Below are positions 9,533 to 63,781 of a stretch of 64,000 bases of DNA, in pieces. Position numbers and translations under genes: made by a program. The notes under the pieces are model-generated. The model searched no databases. It was not told the DNA's origin and saw nothing but the letters and a program-made list of their open reading frames with translations. Every line of letters begins with the position of its first letter. Position 1 is the stretch's first letter. The DNA comes from Phorcus lineatus. Lineage: Eukaryota > Mollusca > Gastropoda > Trochida > Trochidae. The stretch covers positions 15,029,731 through 15,093,730 of the forward strand of contig OV121085.1 in NCBI GenBank assembly GCA_921293015.1, given 5' to 3'.

Positions 9533-10569
9533 ATGCCCAGATTAACAACAGAAGAACGCGAGAGGGCAATCGGTATGCATGCCAAGGGTGCGACTCAAGT
9601 CCAGATTGCACAGACATTCGGTTGTAACCGGGTGACAGTAGCTCAACTCATTCAGAGGTACAACCAGACAGGGCAGACTAGGGACAGGCCTAGGAGTGGG
9701 AGACCACGCGTTCCAACCCCCCCCCCCCCCCCCCCCCCCCCCCACCCCGTGAAGACCGCCACCTGCGAACTTTGCATCTGCGTAACCGGTTCCTTACAGT
9801 GATGTCATCGGCTAATACAGCATTAGGCAGACGTATCAGTCCGTTCACAGTAGCCAGGAGACTACGAGCAGCCGGTATTCGACCATACAGGCCTTTCCGT
9901 GGAATGACCTTGACCCGTCTCCATCGACAGAACAGACTCCGTTGGGCTCGCACTGTGCGACGGTGGCAACGGCGTGATTGGCAGAGGGTACTGTTCACTG
10001 ATGAAAGTCGGTTCAATTTGTTTCATGCTGATGGCAGAGTGCGTGTGTATCGGCGCCGAGGCGAAAGACTGGCACCAAATTGCATCCAGGAGGTCCAGCC
10101 CTTTGGTGGAGGGGGTATCATGGTATGGGGAGGGATCTGTGGCGATAGAAAGACGAATCTTGTCGTCATACGCGGTAACTTGAATGCCCAGAGGTACAGG
10201 GATGAAGTTCTGCGCCCTGTTGTGCTTCCATACCTACGTCAGCAGCCACAAGGTGTTCTCTTACAACAGGACAATGCTAGACCCCACACTGCCCGACTCA
10301 CACAAGACTTTCTTACCAGAAGAAACATTCCGGTCTTGCCTTGGCCGTCTCGTTCTCCTGACCTGTCGCCCATAGAACACCTTTGGGACCACATGGGTAG
10401 ACGTCACAGACAGAGACCACAACGTCCAAACACTTTGGCTGAGCTTGAACAAGCCATTCTGGACGAATGGAACCAGATTCCCAATGACGTCATTAGGAGA
10501 CTGACATCGTCGATGAGACGACGCGTTTTTGCATGCATGACTGTTCATGGAGGTCATACCAGATATTGA
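9533..10569 (+). pseudogene. Tc1-family DD34E transposase, frameshifted
   Basis: The enzyme cuts and joins the transposon ends. The N-terminal part (ATG at 9,533) is a helix-turn-helix region (MPRLTTEERERAIGMHAKGA, then VTVAQLIQRYNQTG) ending in the GRPR hook-like motif. A run of 27 C at 9,717-9,743 shifts the frame. The catalytic part continues in another frame to 10,569. The triad is visible: D in FTDESRF, D in QQDNARPHTA, and E in SPDLSPIEHLWD. There are 34 residues between the second D and the E, which is the Tc1 DD34E signature. The rest is intact up to the stop, so the C-run expansion is the only obvious lesion. Confidence 0.88.
9717..9743. repeat. 27-bp poly-C tract inside transposase
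   Basis: An uninterrupted run of 27 C, followed by A and four more C. It lies where related transposases have a short linker between the DNA-binding and catalytic halves, and it causes the frameshift. Its length may be unreliable because long C-runs are prone to sequencing error. Confidence 0.9.
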
Positions 10570-16183: not shown

Positions 16184-16436
16184 TTACGCTTGGGTAGCTT
16201 TGATCCTCCCATAAACATTCTGTCCCACATTACTGTACACTGCAAGCTCATCGTACGTGTTCTCAGGAGGAGGCGGAAAATCCTTAGTGTTGTGGTAGTC
16301 AACTTCCGGTCGGACATCTTTGATAACACATACACAGTTTTCAATTCCAACCTCCTCGTATATGTCCTTTTTAGGAGATGTGTCAGGCGCGTTCCTTGTA
16401 CTTCTCCGTGTTTGACATCGTGGTCGAATCACTTTC
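16184..16436 (-). other. ITAM-like cytoplasmic tail exon, copy 1
   Basis: Last exon; the TTTAG acceptor joins in phase 2 and the frame ends at TAA. After a basic start (KVIRPRCQTRR) come DIYEEV, a proline patch (FPPPPENTY) and the array YDELAVYSNVGQNVYGRI. This reads YxxL, ten residues, YxxI, which fits a long-spaced ITAM. The internal YSNV has the Y-x-N form bound by Grb2-type SH2 domains. The protein ends five residues later at TQA. The same array and the same end occur in copy 2. SH2 binding is inferred from the motif only. Confidence 0.75.
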
Positions 16437-19400
16437 CTAAATGACAATGAAGCTCGATTGATTCAACAATGTAGAGAGGCAAACATGTTATTTTCTGAAA
16501 GGTTACGATGTACAGTATCTTATATATCAATATATCCGGTATTTATACATTTTAGGTAGTCATACTTAATTGTATGAATGAAAAGAATTTAGAGTCATTG
16601 GCTCTGTGGCTCTTCAGGCTATCTATAATCTACTTAACAAATGGTCGCAGGGTCACCATTTGGGGGTCGAGGGGGGGGGGGGGGGGCGGTCATATAATCA
16701 CAATTACAATCCCAGTGAGTTAATGTTTCACAAAGTTTCCGCTTTCTTTGCATTTGGCTTGGAGAAGATGATTGGTTTTAAGGGCGTTGTCCTCTTGGAT
16801 CTCATAAGGGGTAAGAGGATCATGATACCAAAAAAACAGAATCCCCATTAGATAAGGAATCAGTACACAAGGTTTCATCTTTCTATATTTTTCGCACCTG
16901 AAGAAGAATATGAGAATAAATTAGAATCCTCAATAGTCAATGAGTCTATGCACAAGTTTTCAGATTTCCTGATTCAATGGTTCTGGAGAAGAATATGAAA
17001 TAGCTAAAAAATTGCGGACCAACGGAAACCGGACGCCGTGCAGTGCCATATTCCCATTGGGACTTTCAGGCCAGATGAGCTAAATATTGGTTTTAATAGA
17101 AAATATTTTTCTATAAATCCATGTCTATAAATTATGTTTGGTAGGAGTAAGTCAAACCGACCAAAAGAAGGGGAAAAAGTGACAATTAAATTTACATGGT
17201 CATCATTAGCCTAGATAATTCATATTTACTAATGGAGCCGATTACAAAGTTAATGATAAGCTATAGATACACAACATAAAACTAAATAAACTTTCCATAT
17301 ATCAATTCTTTTATCATGATATAATATAGAAGAAAGCGACTATCTGTAAAAATACATAAGGTATAACATACATGCAGACAACCAATAGAACAGATACCAG
17401 CACAACCAGCACAGCACCTCCGGCGATTGCACCAATGATTGGTAATGGCAGAGAATTGTCTGAAAGAAATAGAAGACCAACACCCATTTACTTGTGTTTA
17501 GGAAATCATTTAACCTGACATCAGAAGATAACATCTGATGAAGGAGTTAGAAGGAAATAAAAAAATTAGTGCTTCTCAACAATGTAGAAACTGCAATACG
17601 GAAATCAACGTTATAACGTTTAACATTTCTAAATACCCGTGATAGAATGGAGTCAGATTTTTAAAACAAGTTTATAGGGGATACTTTGGCAATAGCTAGT
17701 GTTAATTGTTAAATCATTGAGTCTCTTCCAACTTAATATGAAATGATAGAATAATGAAAATTATTACCAAGAGTAAACTCCATGTGTTCTCCCTCTGAGC
17801 ATGAAACTCTAGTACAGGCAAAGAGCCAAACTCTGTCAATCGAAAATTAAAGTTAGACAACTTTTACAATGATTATGGGAAAACGCCAACACATTTGTAG
17901 TTGAATCATGAGTGCCATGAAAATGACTTATTATGATTAATACCATGACAATAATATGATTTTCTATGGTAGACCCAACCCATGTATGGAAAAACAATAC
18001 AAGTGAAAAGTGGTTTGCATCAAACCTACCTGTAGGTATGACCAACAGGTAAAGGTCCATTACAGAACCTGCTTTGATCTTGAACTCCACAGCTCTCTTC
18101 ACCAAGAACAAATCTGATCTCATCTGACGCTGAAAATATAGGCTGTACTTACCTAGTGATAAATGTTTTTAATAATATCTTATATTAAGTTCAACTCTCA
18201 TTTTAAGAAAAAATAATGTAACAGGGTCAATACCACAATCATTAAAAGACTTTGTGTCATGTTAGGCTTCAATTTTTCAATAAAAATTCATTAATTCTAG
18301 CTGGATATTTACTTGCAGACGACTCTTAATCTATAACTTCTTCTATTACGTAGGCTGAGGGGCAAGTCACAAGACTTCTACAGCAAGGACATAGATAGTC
18401 TCAAAGAGAAATGGTCAATGTATGTCGAGCTCCATTGAGATCATATTGAAAATAAAATCCATATCACATCCATTGGCCTCTGTTTTATATTCACGTACAT
18501 CAGCTTAATGACTTTCCCCTCGTATGTACTATAAAGAACATATATAATGTTTTTTAATTCAAACGAGTCAATCATGTTACATTAAAACGAATTTATTCTT
18601 TAACTTCAAAGCAATATCAGAAACAAGGTAAAACAGTAAAAGCAACTTTTACCCATTGCATCTTTTATTTCATGTCTATTTGAGAATTAAGTACACCGAT
18701 GTGATACCTTCTTTTCCTTTCAACCAGTCATCACCTGTAGCTCGATACCATGTTGAAAAGCCGATGCCAGTTGTTGCGTCCCAGTTCGGTGATTTCTCAA
18801 AATCTTCTGCTGTCTTCACCTTCCTGGGTTATCGAAGTATTTAAAAATCAGGAAATATTGCCAACAAAGGTTTCTTAGTATGAGTCTGCAATACATATCA
18901 AATAATACCTCGTACACGTGATAAATACCTATCATCCATGAAAACATTTTGACAAATCGCCATGGCAAATTGCTACTAAATCGTATTAGTTCTCACTTAA
19001 TATCAACTCGGATACATGATTAATATTCAACCAAAACTGTCATGCAAGCTAATTTACAATCTATATATTGATTGAAATTGTCAAATCAAAATTGCCGTTT
19101 TACTATTCTTCACTTAGAAAGAATTTTCTCCCAACAGAGGGCGCTGTGGTCACATGCTCCTACTCTACCCTATGTTTTGTTTATAGCACTCCTCTTGCCG
19201 CAAATATTTGAAATATTAACTATCTGCCGAATATTGGCCAATGCCAACATTCCTTGCGTCGAAGGCTTTTTTGCGTAAACGTGTTCACTTAAGGATATAA
19301 ATGTGTTCACTGACACAGGATTTGCGTTGAATCGGCGATTAACTTTGATCAAATCAGTCGTCTCCATTTTAAGGCCATAATGCTCGAATTAAAGCAGAGG

Positions 19401-22400
19401 TTAGCTTCGGTTTGTATACCTTGACTTCCTCTGTAGGACAGGAAGAGTAACGGTAGATACAGATTACACTTTCAAACCAATTTGTCGAGGAGATATAGTA
19501 TTGACTTGTTTCACCAAGTTTAGATTAAAAGTGCTCGTTTACTAAAAAATCTGACACTTTGGTTGAATGCAGTTACCTTAATTTGTTTTTCCAAATTTTG
19601 TTGCACACAAATGTTTTACATTAATGAAAGGGTTGTTTAAATTTATCGTTCAATGATACCAAAATAAGGAAACCATTTGAAAAATGTAAGTCTTACCCAT
19701 ACTAATAAGCATACTTTAATGGCATAATACAATGTAAAGATCAGTAATATCATACAAGTTAACTTACTTATAGGACACTCTCCTTTAGCGCACACGAGTA
19801 TTCCACTTTTAACGATCATGCCATTTGTGTTATCAAGTAAACAAGTTGGACAAATTAAGATCTCAACACTTTGCTCGGTTTCTGTTCCTCTCAGAATTTC
19901 TATTATTGGTTGTTCAGAAGTCACAAATGATGGGGCTGCAAACAACATAAACATGTGTGATTTCATGTTGTACCTCGATATTTATGATACGTTAATTACT
20001 AAGTCTTTTTATACTACTGATTATGTGTAGATTCTTTACACTTTTAGATATTTTTGAAAGATCTCATGCACTTAAACAAATGAGCTTACGTCCTGCCGGC
20101 ATGATCCGTTGGATTGTTGTTGATTTTCCCTTGTGACTGTTGCTGATAAAGACCTATAAACAGAGTTAAAGGAAAACTGTATTGTTGCAAACAATTTGAA
20201 CTGTAGAGAATTAAGATAATCAAAATAGTTCTTTTGCTTATAATTAAAGACATAATAAGACTATTGGAAAATAATATCAACATATACTATACAAAAAAAG
20301 AAACATATAGTCCATTTTTAGGAGAATACATTGTTATATTTCAAACATGTATAACTCATGAACAAATACTGTGAGCATTATAAATTTTCACATGTGGATA
20401 GGAGAGAACGTCTTTCGATTACAATAAGTCTCATGTGGCAATTCAGTTACATTTTTGCCCAACCCTTTCGAAGTGTCAGTACCTATCCATCACGTGCTCC
20501 AATAACAGTTCTCAGCCCGTTTTTTTCTTGAACGGATCAAACGTTGAATAACCTGAAGCTGAAGAATCCTCTTTCACTCCGCCTGAAGAAATGCAGCCAG
20601 CTCTTAAGGGAGTTTTGGGCCGACGTTGATGCTGCCGTCAACGACGATAAGGTTCCTACCATAATTGCTCTATTGCATTAAGATTGTGTGCGGCAGAGAA
20701 GTCCCTTGTTTAAACGCGCTTTGGGCGGTCTTGCGTTGCTTTGCTGAAACAACTGACTTTGAACATCAATTAGTGGCAGGAGGTGTTACTGCTGATGTAG
20801 GATATGACAGCCAATTTCATAACGCTGCCTCCACATAATCTGCCCACCTGGTGTACTGAGTTTAAATCATAACGTTCGCGAGCTCGTCAGTAGACACTGT
20901 TTGGTCAATAACATCTCTTGATGGAACACAGAACTAAGGCGTCTCCAGTTGTGTAGGTCCAATGCTGCCACATTGTTGCACCAACAGAGATGTAGTCCAC
21001 GGTGTAGAAAGGGCTAAACGTAAGGTCCTCTGGCTCTTAATCAAGCTACCCTCAGCCTTTTCCGTCCAGTTTGGCTGGATAACCGCTGGGTCCGGGTACT
21101 CTGCCTGCTGTGCTAACTGATGTGGCTCGGCGATCAAGCAAATGAAGGACCAGGAGGTTATGTTTTGCATTGGTCACTCTGGGTCCCACTGATCATTGAC
21201 GGTCGTCTGCTGAAGCGGTCTGGTTGTAGCGATCTGCAAATCGGCTGATGGTACTCTGAACAGACCGAGAATTAGTCTGATGGCGATTCTCCTTGTGGCA
21301 ATGTCAAGACGTGGCATAATGGTAAGGCGCTTCAACTCACTGAAAACGAATTACATTTCTGAAAGCCACCTGCCTGTTTATAGTTAGGGTATGCATGCTT
21401 CACGTGCTGCAAACTGCACGCACGAAAGACATTCTTGTGTGTTGAGGTGATGTGTTTCATACTTCGAGAAAAAAAATCCTTTTTCTTTTTCAGCTGGTTT
21501 TTTATGGAATGAGGTAAAAAGCATGTTATCTAGACCCTTGTGTAAAATTAATATGAATATGTTAACAAAATAACCTACAGAATATAAAGTACGGATATCC
21601 TAGCACAGAAATACTTACAAATAGACAATTCTGACATATTTCTTGTGTTAATTTGAAAATACAGAATCGGTGATACAAAAGCATCAAACACAAACGAAAA
21701 TTATCTAGAAGAAAAAACCATAACCAGTCTGTTTAAGAAGTGAAAGATAGATAGAATTTCGTTTTTGATATATCTAAGTTCATCTTATATTTTGTGCGCA
21801 AATAGTCATTAGATGTTATGTTCTTGTTAAACAGCGAAAAATGTTCCGTCCACTTTACAGATAGAAAAGTTATATGAAAACATTATCGACTCATTTAAAA
21901 AGAAATTTAGTCATTCATAGAGTAGTTTTCAAAAGATTCCAAAAGATTACAGACACATAATAGTTCTTTTGTAAAATATTATCAACTTTTATTCTGTAAG
22001 CGATCTGCCTCAAAATCTGCTTACCAAAACACAATACTTACAAAACAATTTTGTGCACATTTAACAAAGTAGAATCACGGTAAGATGTCTCAAATACACA
22101 CGAACAACTCTTACATCCATAATAAAATCTAGCTTAAGCTTGTCTGTTATGAGTTTTCGAAAAAAACACTCACCTCAAAGGTATAGTTGAATTCCGGTGT
22201 CACTGTTATTTGTTCACTCCAGGTGCAATCAACATTGTCAAGATTGTGTTCTCCTACTGTTTGGTTTACATCAACTAATTGGGTCTACACAATAAGAATA
22301 AAGTGTTTTTTTAGTTCTCATTTGCGTTCTTTTGAATTGGATGTCAAGGGAAACTTTATAAAAAAATTAAAGGTCTTGTGCAGGAGAAATGTTTTAAATG

Positions 22401-25400
22401 AATAATTTGGTAACTTTCTATTCTATTGATTACACATAGAAACATAATGAATATCCAAAATATTTCAAATATCATTTATAAAATCTACGTCATGTTATTT
22501 TTATATATTTACAAAACTTGATGTGATGACAGTGGCACTTCTTATAACCCCATTCCGTCCATCCTTCTGTTGTGGACATCTCCAGGATAGTTGGTATTGA
22601 TTATACACTCCATCAACAAGTTGAAGTTTAAGGTTCTCGACCGCAATAGGAGCTGTTTACAAGATTTATTCATCGGTTTAAAGTCGTTGTTTACAAAATA
22701 AGTAGTTTACAATCGTCCTACAATTGGCCTCGATCAAAAGAATTGCAAACCTCATCTGATAAAAACATTTGAAAGTGTTGGATTCATGTAGTCATTGTGT
22801 TCTGAATTTAAATGATGATTAATGATCGGTATCGTAAATAGTTATTCGATATGAAGGCAACTTATCACCCACCAAGATGACAATTGTTGATTTTAATATA
22901 ATCGCATAAAATGTATAAATAAGTACATTGTCTGTGTCTCCTAGGGATGAACATAATTTATACATACATTTTGTGTATCTTTTATTCAATTCTAGTGTGA
23001 TTCATAAGTTCTATAGGAATGACTTTGCTTTTGATTTTGCGTTTTTTTAATGTCTTGTGCAATTGTGTTACTATCAACTGGCAATTACAAACCGTTTATA
23101 CTCGTACATATACAGAAATACATCTTACCAGATTCGTCTGTAACGATTTCAGGCCCAGCAACTGTATCTGAAGCACCTTTGCTTGTCTCGGCATACATCT
23201 CAATCCTGTACGTCCAGTAGCTAGCTAGTCCAGTAATGTTTACTGACACATTGTAGAAACCTGAAAAATGCATATCTAATACAATACCTGCATGATTGCT
23301 ATCATACAATAATTACTGTTGGTTTTGTAAACTTCTTCTTATTATCCTTCGAATCGTAAGGGGCTTCCAGAATGTAACGACCTATTATTTAGCATTAGAA
23401 TACTCTGGTATGACATTTCAACTTACTTACCTAATATTGTGCTATTATTCTGCAATCTTTTGTACCGTTTCCCGTCTTCGCCCAACTCGAAAACTGTAAT
23501 AATGTAGATAGTGTCTCCAGGTCTGGGTTCAGGAGGAGTCCATCTCAACTCTACAGACTCGGATGTTTTGCTCATGAAACGGAAATCTGTGGGGTTCCTG
23601 GGCGCTGTACATCGAGAATGTGGCTTTAATTATTTCTTCGAGTTACATCAAATATAAGGACTTAAAGGAGCTGGAAATGTGATGATGCCATGTGAGAAGC
23701 TATGATTTTAAACTCACAATGTACACCACACTGTATGACAATATTGATATTGTCCTTGCATAATAATTTTGATTGACAAAGAAATCTACTAATGATATTG
23801 GTAAGAAATATTCTCCAAAGAAATGTTAACGTTTCTAGTCTATTGGGCGATTTTCATGATATTATTTTTCAAAAACCACATGAAAATAAACTAAGTTCAC
23901 TTTTTTTGAGTGGTACAGTTAATATTACGGTTGTGGCAGTTTCCACTGAATACTCAAAAATATTTGAAAAATTGGTTTTTAAGTTAGAATCAGTAAATAA
24001 TCATTTTGAAGATTCGGGAACATATACTCGGGGACAATTACTCGGGCAACTGATATCAGATATTAAATATGTCCAATTCTTTTTGTTTTTATATTGTGCT
24101 TTGGTATATCGCCCACATGATTTGTTCAGTAATTGATTTCACTTAACAAATTTTAAGTACTATGTTCTCAAATAACAATTTTGTTTGATATTGGCCAGAG
24201 GTACAATAACCATATTTTGATGTGACGACGTTGATCAATTAATCATATTTCTGACAAATACCTTCTTCTTCAGTCACTATAACTTGTTGATCAGTCTGTC
24301 CCTTCCCCTCTTCGTTGTAAGCAGCAACAACCACGTTATAAGCATTAGCTGGTAGCAGGGAAAGGTTGTACTGTACCATAAAATTCAAATTGTTGAGATT
24401 CGACCGGGGAATCACAGTATCAGTCTCATTCTCACAGTTGGTAGCAACTAACTTAGTAATATTCTGAAATGGTAGAGATTAACGCTGTATGTTCTCAATG
24501 TTAAATTGATGCAAGGGGCACAATAAGAAAGTAAAGTGAAAGTAAAATTTAAAATACGGAAAGTCCTCTGACGGGATACTCGTTATAGTGATCAAATTTT
24601 CTAGTTTAACTTTATTGATCACTCATCGATAACTATAATGTTTTTAGTATAAAGGAAACTGTATCTGGAAGTTAGCATAGTCGGATTCATTGTTATTTAA
24701 TACAAAGTGTATCGTTTCAACCATTTAATCCTATCAAACGTATGTGTTTCAAGTACTGTATATTAGTACATACTGACTTCTAAAGGAGGTAGATACAAGG
24801 TGTAATGTTATTCCAGTATCGTATGTAAAATGCCTGACCAATTGTGCGTTTTGAATTCTTGTTCAGAAAATAGTGTTTTAATTGTTTACCATCAATCGAA
24901 GACACTCTGTACACTGTATGTTTATTCTCCGCACACATGTGGAAGAGTTGAACACTTCAACTGTGTACATATACAGAGCTCCTCCTGTGTTGGTTGGACG
25001 TTTCCATGACAGTGATACTGCACGTGACTTGACGTCATAGAAAGAAAAACCAACAACGCTTTCAGTTGCTGCAATACAAACGGATCCATGTGTATAATTT
25101 GAACGCATGATCATCATTACAGTTGGTCATTCAACACCTTGAATAAAGAAATACCGACTACAATAACATGATGTGATAATCAATAAGCCAATTCCTATTT
25201 GACACTACCGAATATCAAAAGGTATGAAAAGTAATGAAGAGCATTAGTATTGTGTTACATATTCTAAGTATCCCATTACCAAAGAGCGTGGCACATGAAA
25301 GAAAGAGAAACGCAAGGTAACTTAAGCCAAATCCGTATCGAGTGGAGTTCTTAAATAGAAATCACCTGATAACCTCAGAACATGACGTAACATGTCCGTT

Positions 25401-26047
25401 TTAAGCAATACGACCAAAAACTCTTATTGATTGTTATCGACTCTTATTGTTTTGGAATTGAAATGCAAGAAGAAAAATATGGTCTGGTGATTTCGTTTTG
25501 TCGAGACAGGATGCAAACTATAATGACTTTCTCGTTGGAAAATCATATACTGTAAAATAACCCATCAAAAAGTTGATTTATTGCATACAAATGTATGAAT
25601 ACCAGACCTTAGCATTTTTTCCTGTGACGTCCTTATCCATGTTATCACAATAGACATTCATGTCAACTGTAAAATTTTATTTTCAATTTGATTGTGATCA
25701 TCTTTATTTCAGTGCGCATCTAGGTAGGTCCCGGAAATTCTTGAAAAGAGGTAAAATCAACAACTAACCCTCAGTCCGAATTCGTATCGTCTTCCTGAAC
25801 GGATAACTGACCACACCGAAGCTGTTGGTGATGATGGTAAGATTGTAATACAAGCCAGCTGATACACCAGAGAAACTTGCTCTCAATATATCCTCATCAC
25901 CAGAAACTCTTTTGTCCACGTTGTAATCATCTCCATTTAAAGTGATATTGTAAGAGTCGGCCCGCCCCGCAGCTTTGTAGAAGTGTATCTCTGCTTTTGG
26001 TTTCACCAGGGAGGTAGCAGGTGCTAGACCTGAAGTTGGTGCAGGCC
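16184..26047 (-). CDS. FN3 receptor with RPTP-like ectodomain and ITAM-like tail, copy 1
   Basis: Minus-strand exons: 26047-25769, 25068-24890, 24463-24262, 23604-23431, 23260-23129, 22652-22513, 22284-22174, 20153-20090, 19935-19768, 18809-18708, 18129-18030, 17832-17768, 17459-17372, 16436-16184. Phases agree across every junction, giving 684 codons and a TAA stop. Exon 1 is one FN3 domain, exons 2-3, 4-5 and 6-8 three more. Exons 9-12 form a membrane-proximal module with the motif FCNGPLP..TYRVWLFACT, like that of receptor tyrosine phosphatases. Exon 13 is the transmembrane helix, exon 14 an ITAM-like tail. It is likely a cell-surface receptor signalling through phosphotyrosine. The signal peptide and any exons before 26,047 were not found. 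Exon 10 uses an unusual acceptor. No phosphatase domain follows. Confidence 0.82.
17372..17459 (-). other. Transmembrane exon, copy 1
   Basis: Encodes DNSLPLPIIGAIAGG followed by about 17 hydrophobic residues (AVLVVLVSVLLVVCM), one helix of about 23-25 residues with a small-residue GAIAGG start. It ends at a GTATGT donor in phase 2, just before the basic stop-transfer residues encoded by the tail exon. Confidence 0.85.
17768..19935 (-). other. Membrane-proximal RPTP-like module, copy 1 (exons 9-12)
   Basis: Exon 9 carries CPTCLLDN, then SGILVCAKGECP, with paired cysteines. Exon 10 carries EDFEKSPNWD and FSTWYRATGDDW. Exon 11 carries IRFVLGEESCG and FCNGPLP. Exon 12 carries VWLFACTRVSCSEGE. 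A Y/F-CNGPL-P-x-YR-V-x-A-x-T pattern just outside the membrane is typical of receptor-type tyrosine phosphatases. The match is made from memory of the family, not from an alignment. Confidence 0.65.
20540..21330 (-). pseudogene. Decayed Tc1-family transposase in intron 7-8 of copy 1
   Basis: More GC-rich than the surrounding intron. On the minus strand from about 21,320 it reads MPRLDIATRRIAI, then in a shifted frame VQSTISRFADRYNQT, then RVTNAKH and LLDRRATSVSTAGR. These match the order of a Tc1 N-terminus: start motif, helix-turn-helix, RVT linker and DR.ATS.STA region. Multiple frameshifts and stops follow. It is older than, and of a different subfamily from, the Tc1 copy at 9.3-10.8 kb. 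Confidence 0.6.
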
Positions 26048-56516: not shown

Positions 56517-56769
56517 CTAAGCTTGGGTGTTTTGTATCTTTGCATAGTCATTCTGTCCTACATTACTGTACACAGCCAACTTGTCGTACGTGTTCTCAGA
56601 ACGAGGCGGAGAATCCTCATCGTTGTAGTTGTCAACTTCCGGTCGGCAATCATCGATAACACTCAGTCTGCCTACATCTCCTATCTTCTCGTACGTGTCG
56701 TCTTCTGGGGACGTGTCAGACACGTTCTTTTCACTTCTTTGTGTTTGAGATCTTGGGCGGATGACTTTG
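56517..56769 (-). other. ITAM-like cytoplasmic tail exon, copy 2
   Basis: KVIRPRSQTQR, then DDTYEKIGDVG, an acidic middle, and the array YDKLAVYSNVGQNDYAKI, ending NTQA and TAG. YxxL-x10-YxxI and YSNV are kept, while surrounding residues differ from copy 1 (for example PPRSENTY against PPPPENTY). Confidence 0.78.
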
Positions 56770-59700
56770 CTAAATGACAAATAAAGCATATGTATTCAAA
56801 AAGTGTCGCAAAAAGGCAAATAACATAAACATCATACTGTAAATCATAATTTTTCAGCGTTGTACTTGATTGCATGAAATACCAGGGCTGTACACTGATA
56901 TATGTTTGTATACTGAACTGGCATGGACTTCCGGAATGAACAGCAGAATAGGTGGTTAGCCTTAAAATTCTTAACATATGCCATAAACACCAGATTAGTA
57001 TGTCATAAATATATGTATGTGACCGTTGATAAAAAATCATGAGGTAACAGGTATAACATACATGTAGACCACCAGGAAAACAGCAACCAGCACACCCAAC
57101 ACAACCAGCACAGCAGCTGTGACTATTGCAGCAAATGTTGATAATGGCATGGAGTTATCTGAAAGACACGACAGGCCGTTATGTATTTGACATTTTCTTT
57201 AACAAAATATCAATATTTGATAATTGAAGATATGAACTGGTTGAAGATGAAGAAGTAAGTATTTAATATTAAAGCTCGTGAATGTGTAAGATAATAATGT
57301 GCAGATTACCAGATATCTTGCAATTTTCATAAACTTCTACATACAGTTCAACATTATTGATGAATACATGTTCTGCATATGAGAATATCCAAACCAAGAC
57401 AACATAATAAGAAATACTATCAAAAGGTCAATTTTCCTTTTTACCACTTATGGCAGTTGTAAACTCTACGTAATCTCCTTCTGAACATGACACTCTAGTG
57501 CAGGCAAAGAGCCAAACTCTGCAAACAAATTGAAGTAATATGAATTAATAATTGACCATCACAAAAGACTTACAAATCTTTATTCGAACCATTAAGCCAT
57601 CTTAAGTACCTCGAAAAAAGGTAAACTAAATTTGACTGTAAGGTACCAAGACATTGATACATTTTAATATGAGTGCGAATAAATATACTACTAATCCATG
57701 ATCATTACGTCACTATTGTGTTACCAGAGTCAACTGCTAATTGATTGTTCTGGTCATTTGAAAAGAGGAGGGGAATCTTGTGACTGAACAAAACACATGC
57801 ACACATAAATTCTTCCACTGTGTGACAAAAGTAGTTAGTGTCAAACCCACCTGTAGGTACGGTCAACAGGTAAAGGTCCATTACAGAACCTGTTTTGATC
57901 TTGAACTCCACACCTCTCTTCACCAAGAACAAATCTGATCTCATCTGACGCTGAAAATATTGGCAGTGAGGTATGAAGAGGTACTTCGTTTAATAATATT
58001 TACTATACAAAATCTTAATGAACAGATGAATTTATATTTTTATAGTTTGCAGAGATAAAACAGGGACAATATGACAAATATATAACAAGACTTCGAATCA
58101 TGAAATGTCAAATCTATTGCTTATTAATAATTCATTATTTTAAGCTTGGACTGTTTTCGTTGTGTAACACGTTTTATCATTGAAATGGATTGCATGCTGT
58201 TTCATTATAAAGAACATTTTAAGTATATTAGGAGTCTATCATGTTTGGTAGTGCAGAATGACGTACAACTATTGAATACCTTCTTTGCCCTTCACCCAGT
58301 CATCCTCTGTGGCTCGATACCATGTTGTGAAGCTGACACCAGATGCTTTGTCCCAACTGGGTGATTTGTCAAAGTCATCTGCTGTCCTCATCTCGGCAAC
58401 GTTTCCTGTTTTTAAGTAGCATTTGTTAATCATTAATTTGAGAAGAAATGCAAACATTTTTGTTTGATCAGATATGAATAATTATCACGTGTTTGCTTAC
58501 AGTGTCACATGAATGATAAAATGATCGGTCTCATTTTCATTTTATTTCGGAAACATTATGAATCTCCATGTCAAACTGGCATACACAAGGTAGCGAAATT
58601 ATCTCGACGACCACCTTCATGAGGCTGGACTAAAATGGAAGGCAAGTCAAAATAGTGATTGATTACATCGAACTACTTTATACTGATGAATATAAACATT
58701 TGGTTTGGAACCAATATGTAAAAGAAGCAGTTTCTCCTTTTTTCTCTCAAATGAGTCGATGAAATGTATATGAATTAATGTCAACAACAGCAATATATCC
58801 CTCCGTCTTCGGAAAATAAAGTTGAAAAACAACGGTTTCGAAAAGCCATGGGAATAGGTTGTGACTGAGGATTTGTCACATAATTTATTTTGAAATGGGG
58901 TCAAATGCTGTACAACTGACTTTGACTGCGTCTAAACATTCCTATTCATTTTTATCCCAAAAAGTTCACAAATTAAAACAGAGGCTAGCGTCGGAGAATA
59001 TAATTAGAGCTACCACTACGAGAAAAAAACACCTATGAAAGCGGTGAATTACAAAAATAGTTTTCAAGAGACACAATATTGTAAAAACATTAGTATAAAT
59101 ATCAATCTTTCCCGTATCAAATGAACAAATTAATGTGGGAGTGTGGCATTTCATTGACCAAACAACGCAGTTTAAAATAAAATAAGGCCTACCTATACAA
59201 ATACACACATTGGATGACAAAATATAAAGTAAAGTGTTTAAGGAAGTAAGATACACAATAGAACTCACCTATTGGACAGTCTCCTTTTGCGCACACAAGT
59301 ATTCCACTTTTAACAATCATACCATTTGTGTTATCAAGAAGGCAAGTTGGACATGTAATGAGTCCAACACTCTTTCCAGTTTCTGTTCCGCTCACAATGT
59401 TTATTATTCGTCTTTCAGCAATCACAAATGATGGAGCTGCAAATCGATCGTTCTATTTAAAACTATACGTCGCGAACATTACATCTAGTTTTAACTTGAT
59501 TGTAAAAATATGAACTTGTTTGATCTAATATTGTAGATAGGTATAGATAGATAAAAACTGTTAATATGAAGTCTTCACATATATATGATGGTGTAAACAT
59601 TCACTAGATTTTTATACATTTTAAACAAATATGCACCTAAAGAAATTGACTTACGTCCTGCTGGCATGTACACTTGAATTATAGACGATTTTCCTTTCTG

Positions 59701-62700
59701 ACTGTTGCTGATAAACACCTATCAAGAGAGGTACATGGAAATTGTATTTTAGCAAAGAATTTAAATGTAAAATAATTAGATCTAGATCATTTACCAAATA
59801 AACAACTTATACATTAGTTTTTTAACATCATAGTTCCATGTATGTTTCATGGAGTTAACCTGTCTTCATCCATCCGTTGTTTGCACATGGTGAGCAAACA
59901 CCATGATTGCGGTTTTCTTGAAGTAACAGCATTGACGTCAAAAACGCTGAATGCTAAGCTTACACAACTTAAATATTCAATTCCCAATTTCATAAAATAT
60001 ATCATATGTTGTAATGATAGACGATAAAAGGCACTATGTTCAGAGGACACATATTACGTCTGAAATTACGTAGAAACGATTATATATCCGGCGATCTTTG
60101 TTCTTTTGTCCATTATGATTCTATAAAATAACGCCATATGAAATCACACTCACCTCAAACGTATAGTTGAATTCCGGTGTAACTGTTATTTGTTCAATCC
60201 AGGTGCAATCAATATTGTCAAAATTGTGTTGTCCAAGTTCTGGATTGACATCAACTAATTGGGTCTACAACGTGAATATATATAACTTTTTTATTCTAAT
60301 TTTCACTACCAATTTTCTTAACATTTATCAATATTATGATTTTAAGGCAGGTAATATCTTTTCAACTCAATAACGTTTGTAATCTCCTAATAAACAACTT
60401 GTACATGTAAGCATATTGAATAATACATTTTGAAGATTTAAGACAAGCTGAATATATTTACAAAACTTGATGTGTTGACAGTGGCACTTCTGATAACTCC
60501 ATTCCGTCCATCCTTCTGTTGTGGACATCTCCAGGAGAGTTGGTATTTATTATACACTCCATCAACAGGTTGATGTTCAAGATTCTCAACTGCAATTGGA
60601 GCTGCCAGGAAAAATAATTGAACGGTTTACAGTTAGTTTTAATATTCTCGCCATATTCACAATAAAAAACGTTTAGCAAATTGTCATTAAATTGACATCG
60701 TTATGATCTCAAAAGACAAGAATTTACTTCTTAACGTTTTAAGTAGTCTTTTTGCCTCTAATATCCTGCCTCTGTGATGTTTTCGTGCACTTTTGTTGCT
60801 ATCATTTTATGACTACCAATCACATTTTGAGTGGAATTTAATAGATAAACATAAAAAATGAATAGAAATATGAATTTACCTGATTCATATGTACTGACTT
60901 CAGGCCCATCAACAGTATTTGAAACTCCTTTGCTGGTCTTGGCATACATCTCGAACTTGTACTTCCAGTAGCTTGATAGTCCAGTAATGTTCATTGACAC
61001 ATCGAAGACACCTGCAATATTATGATCATAAAATGCTTCTCAGACCCTTACCAAATTTTACAATGAATTAAAAACATAATATCATGGCATACTTGTATAG
61101 TTAAAAATGAAAGAAATACCAAAAGATTTGCTTCATAAAAGAGAGCAATCTAGTTATTAAACATAGTCGACCTCTCGTCAATATCGCTTTTGTAATTTTT
61201 GCATGGATGGATGTCTCGCCTTATTGTCAAAAAATGGAACATAGATTCTTAACCTTTATACTTCCGATACATAGCTTTATTGGATTCTGTTGTAATGTTT
61301 TTTTTGACCTGAAATATAATTTTGCTTCATGCTTTGTTACAAAAAATTAATTCCCAATCAGAACAGATAAAGCCAGAGTAACAATGCAAATAGATCGTTA
61401 TTTGTGGTATGACTAAATTAATGTTGAAAATTTAAAATTCTGATTTGAACGTTATCCTATTGTACAAAGTCATCACCATAGAACATGTGTACTTGCTTAC
61501 TAAAAAAGGTACTTAGTCAAACTGTAACCACCTTTGGTTTTTGGGTACTGTTTTTGAAGCTGACTGAAATCGTATACCGATTAGTGTTGGTTTTTGTATG
61601 ATTAGACTAAGTGCCATGTTATAAATAGCGGGCAACAGAAAGACTTTTTTCTTATTACTTTTTGTAGTACATGGACATGACAGTTACATATATGACACAC
61701 AACGTAAATACAATAATATACACATTTGGCAGAATTTTATTACATCATGAAGTACAATATTATTTACAATATATATAATTTATCCAATTAAAGGCATCGC
61801 TTTTAGTTTAAATCTAAGAGGTTTCAAAATACACTTGTACAAAGCTATATCACAATGATATTACTTTAGTCTTGGTTAGTCTTTAAAAAGTAAGGGGGAG
61901 GTTGACCAAAAAGTCATAAATTTCGAGAAGTAGCAAATTGATTAAGCGATGAACTTGTCAATATTGATTGTTCTCTTTAATCTATTTTTGATTTTTTAAT
62001 GATTGTTTCATTCCCGTTTGCTTTGATTTTAAAATGTTGTACTTGACAGTAATACTATAATGTTGAGTTCTCGATTTCTGTATTCGAGATATACAAGGCA
62101 ACTGATTATTTCTGAAAAGTTTATGTTGGTTTTCGTTTCTATCTCAATCAATTTTTTAACTTTGTTTAACATATATGTAACAGACTTATTGCCTCCTCAT
62201 CTTCCTCGCAAAAACTGCATGTATTTTTTATCTTCACAGGAAGACTTTGTTTAACACCTACCATTAGAGAATATAGTATACTGAGATGGCATTTGAAAAT
62301 ACTAACCCTCTTTACTGACATTTTTGAATATGGTGTACTGGTTCCTGTCTTCATCCCACTCGTAAACTTTGATGATATAGACTGTAACTCCAGGTCTTGG
62401 TTCAGGAAGAGACCACCTCAGTTCTACAGACTCAGACGTCTTGCTCATGTAACGGAACGCCGTGGGATTCCTAGGGGCTATATATCGAAGATTTAAATTT
62501 TGGATATTAACAACAGCGAAAACAATGCTAGTGCTAGAGTTATGATTGTGTAATGAGAAACTTGAACAATGTCATGTTTGATTGCTATGTCATAATACGA
62601 ACAATGTACACCGTTTTCCATGGCAGAAATGCTACTTGCTAAATTCATGGAAAAGGATTTTGGTTGATATATATGCTCTCAACCTAGAGCCTTTGTTAAG

Positions 62701-63781
62701 AAAATATATACCCAGGTTAAGACAAATCTTCTGAAACACGACATTATCAGCATTTCCCTTGTATCGAAAGATTTACACTTTAAGTCTGTAAAAAAACACC
62801 TTAACATAAATCTTACGTGATCAAATTGTATGGTACAGATGGTACAGTTTATTTTGTAAACGTCGACGGGTTCGTTATAAACAATTTCACTATTTCTCCA
62901 ATAAATCACTTTCCCTACAGTTACCTTCTTCATCAGTTAGCACAGTTTCCTGATCAGTCCGTCCCTTTCCCTCCTCATTGTAAGCAGCGACGAACAATTT
63001 ATAAGCAGTAGCTGGTAGCAATGACAGGTCGTAGCGTACCAAAAAGTTCAAATTGTTGAGATCCAACTGGGAGATTACCCTATCAGTTTCGCTTTTACAG
63101 CTGGCTTCAGGTGACACAGTAACATTCTAAAATGGTTGAAACAATTGCCACTTATGACCCCACCGTCATATTTAAAATGTTCATATCATCATCTTCAAAA
63201 AGCAACAATCTGATTGAGATATCTATATTTGTAAGAATTCTCTTGCCAAGATGTATATTTTGTATCCATAATAATAGTTAATAACATTATTAAAGTCGGC
63301 TTCATTGTTAATAAATCATAAGCAGAACATTTAGGTTCAAGTATTACATAGACCAATCACTGTGCTATACAAAATACCCGTGTTGCATGCAATCACAAGG
63401 TCGCTGGAATATGTTTTATAATGCTGATACTTATTTCTCTCAAGTCACTTTATATATTTAAAATTTTTGTAAGCTCTCAATCCTTCCGACTTGAATAATT
63501 CTAAATGTAAACAGCTACAAGATTGCATTTTTTTTTCGATAAACCTGTTATGCGAGTCAAAATGTGTAATGTTGTTCACAAAATAATGTTTTCATTGTTT
63601 ACCATTGCTTGGAGGCAGTCTGTACATTTGATGTTTATTCTCTGAACACATGTAGAAGAGTTATACACTTCCATCGTGTACTTATACAGATCTCCTTTTG
63701 TGTTGATTGGTCGTTTCCATGACACAGAGGCTTTACGTGATGTGACGCCATAGACCCTCAGATCATTGACGGCTTCAGATG
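56517..63781 (-). CDS. FN3 receptor with RPTP-like ectodomain and ITAM-like tail, copy 2 (5' end outside window)
   Basis: Minus-strand exons: 63781-63603, 63126-62925, 62477-62307, 61011-60880, 60601-60462, 60264-60154, 59718-59655, 59436-59269, 58405-58280, 57950-57851, 57518-57445, 57158-57062, 56769-56517. All junctions keep phase, giving 604 codons and a TAG stop. The exons match copy 1 exons 2-14 one to one, many with identical lengths (179, 202, 132, 140, 111, 64, 168, 100 bp). Domains: FN3 x3, the membrane-proximal module (CPTCLLDN, TTWYRATEDDW, FCNGPLP, VWLFACTRVSCSEGD), one transmembrane helix and an ITAM-like tail. The equivalent of copy 1 exon 1 would lie beyond 64,000. No lesion was seen, so it appears intact. 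It is probably a cell-surface receptor; the ligand is unknown. Confidence 0.87.
57062..57158 (-). other. Transmembrane exon, copy 2
   Basis: DNSMPLSTFAAIVTAA followed by VLVVLGVLVAVFLVVYM, a single hydrophobic helix with the same phase-2 GTATGT donor as copy 1. Confidence 0.85.
57445..59436 (-). other. Membrane-proximal RPTP-like module, copy 2 (exons 8-11)
   Basis: Same four-exon structure as in copy 1. The exon at 58,405-58,280 has a normal AACAG acceptor and is 24 bp longer at its 5' side than the copy 1 counterpart, adding NVAEMRTAD before DFDKSPSWD. Confidence 0.7.

Follow-up and report, generated by a model that had tools for sequence, protein, structure and literature searches.

Two genes on the minus strand of a 64,000-nucleotide stretch of DNA (C9:15029731-15093730; hereafter the window) encode predicted single-pass receptors. 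They combine an FN3 ectodomain that is common to RPTPs with a short cytoplasmic tail that would act as an activating ITAM. On balance we think it probable that these are activating receptors coupled to Syk and Grb2, which would have arisen from an RPTP-like gene by replacement of its end and been spread by duplication. On the sequence evidence the ITAM reading ranks best among the alternatives.

We infer phosphorylation, the binding of Syk and Grb2, activation and any immune role along the following lines. Ligand would cluster the receptors, and a Src-family kinase would then phosphorylate the outer tyrosines, those of YDxL and YxxI. Both phosphotyrosines would be bound by the tandem SH2 domains of the genome's Syk-like kinase, and a Grb2-type adaptor would dock at the middle Y-x-N. 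We also infer the direction of the swap, in which the end of an RPTP-like gene would have been exchanged for a transmembrane (TM)-plus-tail unit of equal intron phase, with duplications following.

Organization of the two receptor genes

The elements of the two receptors, termed copy 1 and copy 2, are listed here in window coordinates, with the basis for each in brackets.

16184 to 16436, minus strand: copy 1, last coding exon, 83-aa cytoplasmic tail and stop (gene model)
16202 to 16264, minus strand: copy 1, putative ITAM with embedded YxN, ENTYDELAVYSNVGQNVYGRI, tail residues 58-78 (motif patterns, conservation)
17372 to 17459, minus strand: copy 1, transmembrane exon, donor at/gtatgt, phase 2 into the tail (gene model)
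17768 to 17832, minus strand: copy 1, membrane-proximal exon e12, VWLFACTRVSCSEG (gene model, exon comparison)
18030 to 18129, minus strand: copy 1, membrane-proximal exon e11, SDEIRFVLGEESCG...CNGPL (gene model, Pfam)
18708 to 18819, minus strand: copy 1, membrane-proximal exon e10, 5' end provisional (gene model, comparison with the L006 gene)
19768 to 19935, minus strand: copy 1, exon e9, where the PTP_tm-like region begins (gene model, Pfam)
20090 to 26047, minus strand: copy 1, eight ectodomain exons e1-e8, FN3 domains included (gene model, Pfam)
56517 to 56769, minus strand: copy 2, last coding exon, tail and stop positioned as in copy 1 (gene model)
56535 to 56597, minus strand: copy 2, putative ITAM with embedded YxN, ENTYDKLAVYSNVGQNDYAKI (motif patterns, dN/dS)
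57062 to 57158, minus strand: copy 2, transmembrane exon (gene model)
57445 to 59436, minus strand: copy 2, membrane-proximal exons e9-e12, PTP_tm-like (gene model, Pfam)
59655 to 63781, minus strand: copy 2, FN3-bearing exons e2-e8, the gene running past the window edge (gene model, Pfam)

Copy 1 forms a single open frame from e1 (26047) through the FN3 exons, the membrane-proximal region and the TM exon into the tail. The splice between TM and tail exons falls at consensus sites (at/gtatgt ... tttag/g, the slash marking the junction), and the joined exons read ...VLLVVCM-KVIRPRCQ...ENTYDELAVYSNVGQNVYGRI-KATQA-stop. This agrees with the sequence-only reading of this DNA, which had placed the stop of copy 1 five residues past the motif. 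Copy 2 (63781-56517, from e2 to the tail) is identical to copy 1 in exon order and phases, and has the identical type of tail. N-terminal exons upstream of e1 of copy 1, and signal peptides, were looked for and were not found.

In copy 1, an 11-nt micro-exon (19430-19420) is required to join e9 and e10 in frame. Because its e10 starts ~10 nt shorter than that of the L006 gene, which lies in the same cluster 15-20 kb outside the window, copy 1 is possibly damaged at e10. There is no damage at e10 in copy 2 or the L006 gene. The e10 of copy 1 is seemingly split by ~600 nt (19430-19420 / 18819-18708, minus strand), as would happen if an insertion came to be spliced as an intron. The L006 gene is open from e1 to the tail stop; its e4-e8 are missing between e3 and e9 (C9:15013283-15012708) with the frame intact. 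Ectodomain length varies, and the tail is retained. As judged from the gene models, copy 2 (within the window), the L006 gene and, given the caveat of the micro-exon, copy 1 are readable throughout.

The ectodomains of both copies give fn3 matches in Pfam. The membrane-proximal regions of copies 1 and 2 match PTP_tm (PF18861) with 20.1 and 22.0 bits (E = 8e-4 and 2e-4), below the cut-off of 26.3. The corresponding match in a true RPTP on the same contig, the RPTP sibling discussed below, is of similar strength and likewise below the cut-off (20.6 bits, E = 6e-4).

The tail motif conforms to an ITAM with wide spacing

In a pattern scan the motif of copy 1 reads YxxL-x10-YxxI; E stands three residues before the first tyrosine and YSN lies inside, and [DE]xxYxx[LI]-x10-Yxx[LI] fits the tails of both copies. 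The ITAM pattern Yxx[LI]-x(6-12)-Yxx[LI] is matched with a spacing of x10 in both, and at the same columns in all eight open tails of the family described below. The strict spacing x(6-8) has no match in the tail of either copy. An acidic residue at −3 of the first tyrosine is part of the ITAM pattern, and it is present as E58 in 8/8 open tails.

Joint column shuffles (200,000) served to estimate how often such motifs arise by chance. The loose ITAM pattern arose 1249 times for copy 1 and 1246 times for copy 2, and the pattern with the acid at −3 arose 180 and 248 times respectively; the latter appeared in both copies at one column 32 times. A chance motif is ruled out by these shuffles together with the conservation set out below. 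An ITIM was also considered and rejected, as [SIVL]xYxx[ILV] has no match in either window copy. Splicing past the stop was discarded too. Copy 1 has a GT at its stop (GCGTAATA), but copy 2 lacks one, and in each of the eight open tails the stop comes 3 to 5 residues past the motif.

The tail belongs to a family confined, among the matches listed, to contig C9

We searched the genome itself (957.8 Mb in 74 contigs) for further tails. The tail of copy 1 as query led to 8 places, and a consensus tail to 11 matches at 10 places among the best candidates scored, two of the matches being pieces of one frameshifted copy. All of the tail matches listed lie on C9. There are eight open tails, one that is frameshifted and one remnant, as follows.

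C9 15.009, 15.046 and 15.086 Mb: open tails, the latter two in the window (own-genome search)
C9 12.120, 12.181, 12.222, 12.299 and 27.534 Mb: open tails (own-genome search)
C9:12379927-12380167 (12.380 Mb): tail frameshifted before the motif (own-genome search)
C9:12205191-12205265 (12.205 Mb): tail remnant with an internal stop (own-genome search, E = 0.0035)

Comparison of the tail with Pfam and with PDB sequences gave nothing meaningful, and no relatives were found in viral and prokaryote collections, as expected of an animal gene. A candidate TM exon lies upstream of the tail at six of seven further loci scanned, phase 2 being built into the search filter, and is absent at L007. The state of the ectodomain differs between loci. 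In the L004 gene (12.29 Mb) exon e6 is interrupted by a stop, and at L007 the ectodomain is present only as pieces with changed residues. No ectodomain exon passing E = 0.01 was found in the 10 kb upstream at L008, and at L005 there is none upstream on the same strand, with a single one on the opposite strand. The gene at 27.53 Mb is probably readable as well, its exons having been matched individually. A lone e12-like exon, LFACTRVVCSEEEYVEW, lies within the window at 8533-8441 (minus strand) with no neighboring exons found, and is probably a remnant of a further receptor copy.

Constraint in the tail is strongest in the motif

Nine residues of the motif (E58, N59, Y61, L64, V66, Y67, N69, Y75 and I78) are present in 8/8 open tails, which are paralogues of one genome. 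Invariant columns number 16 of 83 in these tails, and nine of the 16 fall inside the motif. The probability that E58, Y61, L64, Y75 and I78 would all be invariant under a random draw of columns is 1.5e-4, a guide rather than a strict test because the tail copies are related. Silent codon differences occur at eight of the nine invariant motif sites, the exception being Asn69. The tyrosines on which the sequence-only reading depended thus survive in every open paralogue of this genome. It had also pointed to an internal YSNV; the YxN part holds in all eight open tails, and YxxV in just four, the residue at +3 of the middle tyrosine being V, V, E, V, V, H, H and E.

Comparison of copies 1 and 2 gives dN/dS = 0.10 for the motif (21 codons; 5 non-synonymous and 7 synonymous differences, which are small numbers), 0.83 for the other 62 codons of the tail and 0.35 over 414 codons from nine ectodomain exons, a count that leaves out e1, e10, e12 and the TM exon. 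The four motif columns that vary between the copies (63, 74, 76 and 77) are all 'x' positions. Pooled over 28 tail pairs, which are non-independent, pN/pS is 0.26 for the motif and 0.58 for the rest of the tail. These ratios indicate that the motif is under purifying selection. It is therefore scarcely credible that the genes are decayed RPTPs retaining a meaningless stub. Several members of the family are indeed damaged, but nothing else in the tail is as constrained as the motif, with the low dN/dS and nine invariant residues given above.

A reading that we consider unlikely is that phosphotyrosines of the tail serve as a platform on which SH2 proteins of the Grb2 or Src type dock, for growth or adhesion signaling without Syk, the outer tyrosines binding single-SH2 proteins independently. 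The middle YxN and the outer tyrosines are equally invariant. A further tyrosine upstream of the motif, Tyr26, is kept with I or V at +3 in 7/8 open tails and could provide another such site. Moreover, PTP genes of C9 end in YxN repeats (NIYMN, DIYVN and DIYMN, for example), suggesting that YxN docking is native to the family. On the other hand, the outer tyrosines have L or I at +3 and a fixed separation of 14 residues in 8/8 open tails, which single docking sites would not need, and a Syk-like kinase is probably present.

Two features run counter to an ITAM. One is the x10 spacing, and the other is that YDxL and YxxI double as YxxPhi sorting signals. The tail might thus consist of endocytosis signals, in a scavenger or decoy receptor taken in by AP-2 without kinase signaling. 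A YxxPhi signal does not include E at −3 or N at −2, both of which are invariant here, and the middle tyrosine has no hydrophobic residue at +3 in four of the eight tails (E, H, H and E), yet this tyrosine and the Asn at +2 are invariant. We judge this reading improbable, despite the matches to YxxPhi. In mammals, according to PMC2832619, it is unclear whether CEACAM ITAM-like motifs serve internalization or activation.

No phosphatase exon was found in the window

The sequence-only reading had found no phosphatase domain in this receptor, and searches with patterns and with a domain query lead to the same result. When eight short PTP patterns were run against all six reading frames of the window, isolated matches turned up at three positions (89, 348 and 15512), with stops nearby and none together. 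A 320-aa PTP domain query taken from C9 had no match at E ≤ 1 in the window, nor in C9:14.9997-15.0297 Mb, C9:27.515-27.555 Mb or loci L036-L040; in the same run it matched at four C9 PTP loci (L016/17, L027, L030 and L032/33). In line with the suggestion that phosphatase exons be sought at related loci, none was found around two further tail copies. A genome-wide search with PF00102, in which 150 of 367 candidates were scored and at least 156 matches obtained, has no match at C9:15.0-15.1 Mb among those listed. Clustered matches to PTP-domain exons are found at C25:34.35-34.81 and 37.05-37.78 Mb and at many places on C5, and the genome seems to have undergone a large expansion of tyrosine phosphatase genes.

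There are many PTP exons on contig C9, and a longer RPTP gene, with its phosphatase exons further downstream, could in principle use the tail exon as an alternative 3' end. We regard this as very improbable. Copy 2, copy 1 and the L006 gene follow one another, each with its own ectodomain and with no PTP match between them, and the tail query has no match in the examined stretches of the four C9 PTP loci.

A true RPTP shares and exchanges exons with the ITAM receptors

A gene at C9:12.467-12.489 Mb, the RPTP sibling, has exons e1-e8 that resemble those of the ITAM receptors, and e9-e12 of its own. Its 3' part consists of a TM exon with a phase 2 end, juxtamembrane exons and a complete PTP domain (Pfam Y_phosphatase, E = 2e-76) with the motifs HCSAGVGRTG and QTEKQY, and with WQD replacing WPD; the gene model starts at e10. 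The coding sequence ends with three Y-x-N repeats and a stop. On the strength of these motifs the sibling is predicted to be active as a phosphatase. The intron between TM and cytoplasmic exons is in phase 2 in the sibling and in both ITAM receptors. Three more loci with PTP domains are found on C9 near 27.33, 27.41 and 27.67 Mb. Upstream of these there are e9-e12-like exons at 27.67 Mb, weak FN3 matches at 27.41 Mb and none at 27.33 Mb.

The two halves of the ectodomain differ in their sequence relationships. Over the FN3 exons (e2, e3, e4, e6, e7 and e8) copy 2 has 155/210 positions identical to the RPTP sibling, against 96/210 in the comparison with the 27.53 Mb ITAM gene, whereas over e9-e12 the corresponding values are 42/135 and 69/135. 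Columns present in all four genes compared were counted, and e1 and e5 were excluded from the FN3 count as they had no match from the 27.53 Mb gene. This contrast was reached in 0 of 100,000 column permutations. The RPTP sibling lies 2.5 Mb from the window cluster, and 0.09-0.35 Mb from the tail copies at 12.12-12.38 Mb.

One of the latter appears chimeric. At the L004 locus (L039, C9:12290768-12299714) RPTP-type e9-e12 lead into a candidate TM exon of the ITAM class and the tail. Its e9-e12 are identical to those of the RPTP sibling at 35/47, 25/39, 23/31 and 14/19 positions, and to those of copy 1 at 16/32, 9/33, 11/30 and 6/11. TM and juxtamembrane queries from the RPTP had no convincing match at L004, with ~1.5 kb past the tail covered. 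Of these queries, the second and third juxtamembrane ones did match at the RPTP of 27.67 Mb, and the TM and first juxtamembrane ones did not. The simplest account of the mixing of modules would be recombination or conversion between the receptor classes. These sequence comparisons establish the kinship of the ectodomain with RPTPs and the mixing of exons with a real RPTP. The earlier description of an RPTP-type ectodomain is thereby upheld, by the fn3 matches, by PTP_tm (below cut-off) and by FN3 exons in common with a true RPTP.

A candidate Syk-like kinase

The genome was searched with a tandem-SH2 query based on human Syk. It gave four collinear exon matches on the minus strand of C5, from 49521868 to 49517537, covering query residues 3-52, 51-119, 133-186 and 182-229 with E = 2.4e-6, 5.7e-4, 7.7e-4 and 2.1, the last being weak alone. 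Two kinase-domain exons (PF07714; 133 of 795 candidates scored) lie 10 kb further on the same strand, at 49507725-49506795. In the kinase Shark there are ankyrin repeats between the SH2 domains. The second and third matches on C5 are separated by ~0.55 kb, so that there would be little room for repeats of this type. The gene at C5:49.52 Mb is thus a probable Syk-like SH2-SH2-kinase.

The two best matches of the query fall in other SH2 genes, at C1:63.811 Mb and at C39:34.046 Mb, the latter with kinase exons nearby. The tandem-SH2 match at C1:63.811 Mb we take to be a Csk-like gene, and it was dropped as a candidate for Syk.

Relationship to known receptors

The closest known architecture is that of the type-III (R3) RPTPs (PTPRB, PTPRJ/CD148, PTPRH, PTPRO and PTPRQ, and PTP10D of the fly). 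FN3 repeats and a single membrane pass are common to both, and a membrane-proximal region resembling PTP_tm is likewise present here, below the Pfam cut-off. In contrast to the R3 RPTPs, no phosphatase domain was found in the ITAM receptors, which have the 83-aa ITAM tail instead. The RPTP sibling has one phosphatase domain followed by YxN repeats, and FN3 exons in common with the ITAM receptors. We take it to be of R3 type from its single phosphatase domain; its top PDB sequence matches are the double-domain enzymes PTPRS and LAR.

Fc-gamma-RIIA and Fc-epsilon-RI beta are single-chain ITAM receptors, the latter having a third, middle tyrosine. These vertebrate receptors carry the motif in their own tail, with wide spacing or with an extra tyrosine six residues past the first, as here. 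Their ectodomains are unrelated, and it is in the present family that the middle tyrosine lies in Y-x-N. Draper, CED-1 and MEGF10 are engulfment receptors, of a kind known in invertebrates, with ITAM-like tails that feed Src and Syk/Shark kinases. Unlike this family they have EGF-type ectodomains without kinship to RPTPs.

The mammalian CEACAM1/CEACAM3 system offers a further parallel. As described in PMC2832619, its members have, like this family, a common ectodomain with differing signaling ends and an ITAM-like motif in the receptor's own tail, and there too sequence is exchanged between classes. According to that paper, conversion and recombination keep these paired receptors similar to one another, and their ITAM-like motifs may act in signaling or in internalization. 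The CEACAM ectodomain is of Ig type, whereas that of this family is FN3/RPTP. Moreover, the putative opposite partner here carries a phosphatase domain itself, whereas in CEACAM it has an ITIM that recruits one.

In PMC5978004 (2018), vertebrate-like Syk/Zap70 homologues are reported only in those invertebrates with CARD-CC/Bcl10, mollusks are named among the species with Bcl10, and ancient ITAM receptors upstream of Syk and CARD-CC/Bcl10 are inferred from gene co-occurrence. Invertebrates are described as having a single Syk-like gene plus Shark in PMC10253181. The coupling to Syk or other SH2 proteins that had been proposed for the tail is consistent with the probable Syk-like gene and with PMC5978004. 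The family would provide a concrete candidate, with a testable motif, for the inferred invertebrate ITAM receptors, in a genome that probably encodes a Syk-like kinase. A description of an RPTP-type ectodomain with an ITAM tail was not found among the open-access matches listed, as judged from titles and the openings of abstracts, most subscription papers lying outside this set.

If the ITAM reading is correct, the exchange of one end of an RPTP gene could turn a receptor that is an enzyme into one that activates. The ITAM receptors may be paired with RPTPs having a common outer module. We put forward more tentatively, as possible rather than probable, a design in which one FN3 module is exchanged as exons between activators that contain an ITAM of their own and receptors of opposing effect that bear a phosphatase, the ITAM arm being the missing upstream receptor of invertebrate Syk. 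In such a pair the phosphatase would itself be the inhibitory partner. Both arms would respond to one ligand, the first by recruiting a kinase and the second, an enzyme, by erasing the same phosphotyrosines, and the system would work without ITIMs or adaptor chains.

Other elements in the window

A short cysteine-rich, EGF-like open stretch, CGNGNGGNEISSGTRCVCQTGYVKNRNSECEPC, is found at 2878-2741 (minus strand), and may be an N-terminal exon belonging to the gene that follows downstream. There is a long open frame at 9694-10569 (plus strand), presumably resembling a transposase of the Tc1/mariner type. Between the receptor copies lie long open frames at 33172-30001 and 44809-43751 (minus strand), which we take to resemble the endonuclease and reverse transcriptase of non-LTR retrotransposons.
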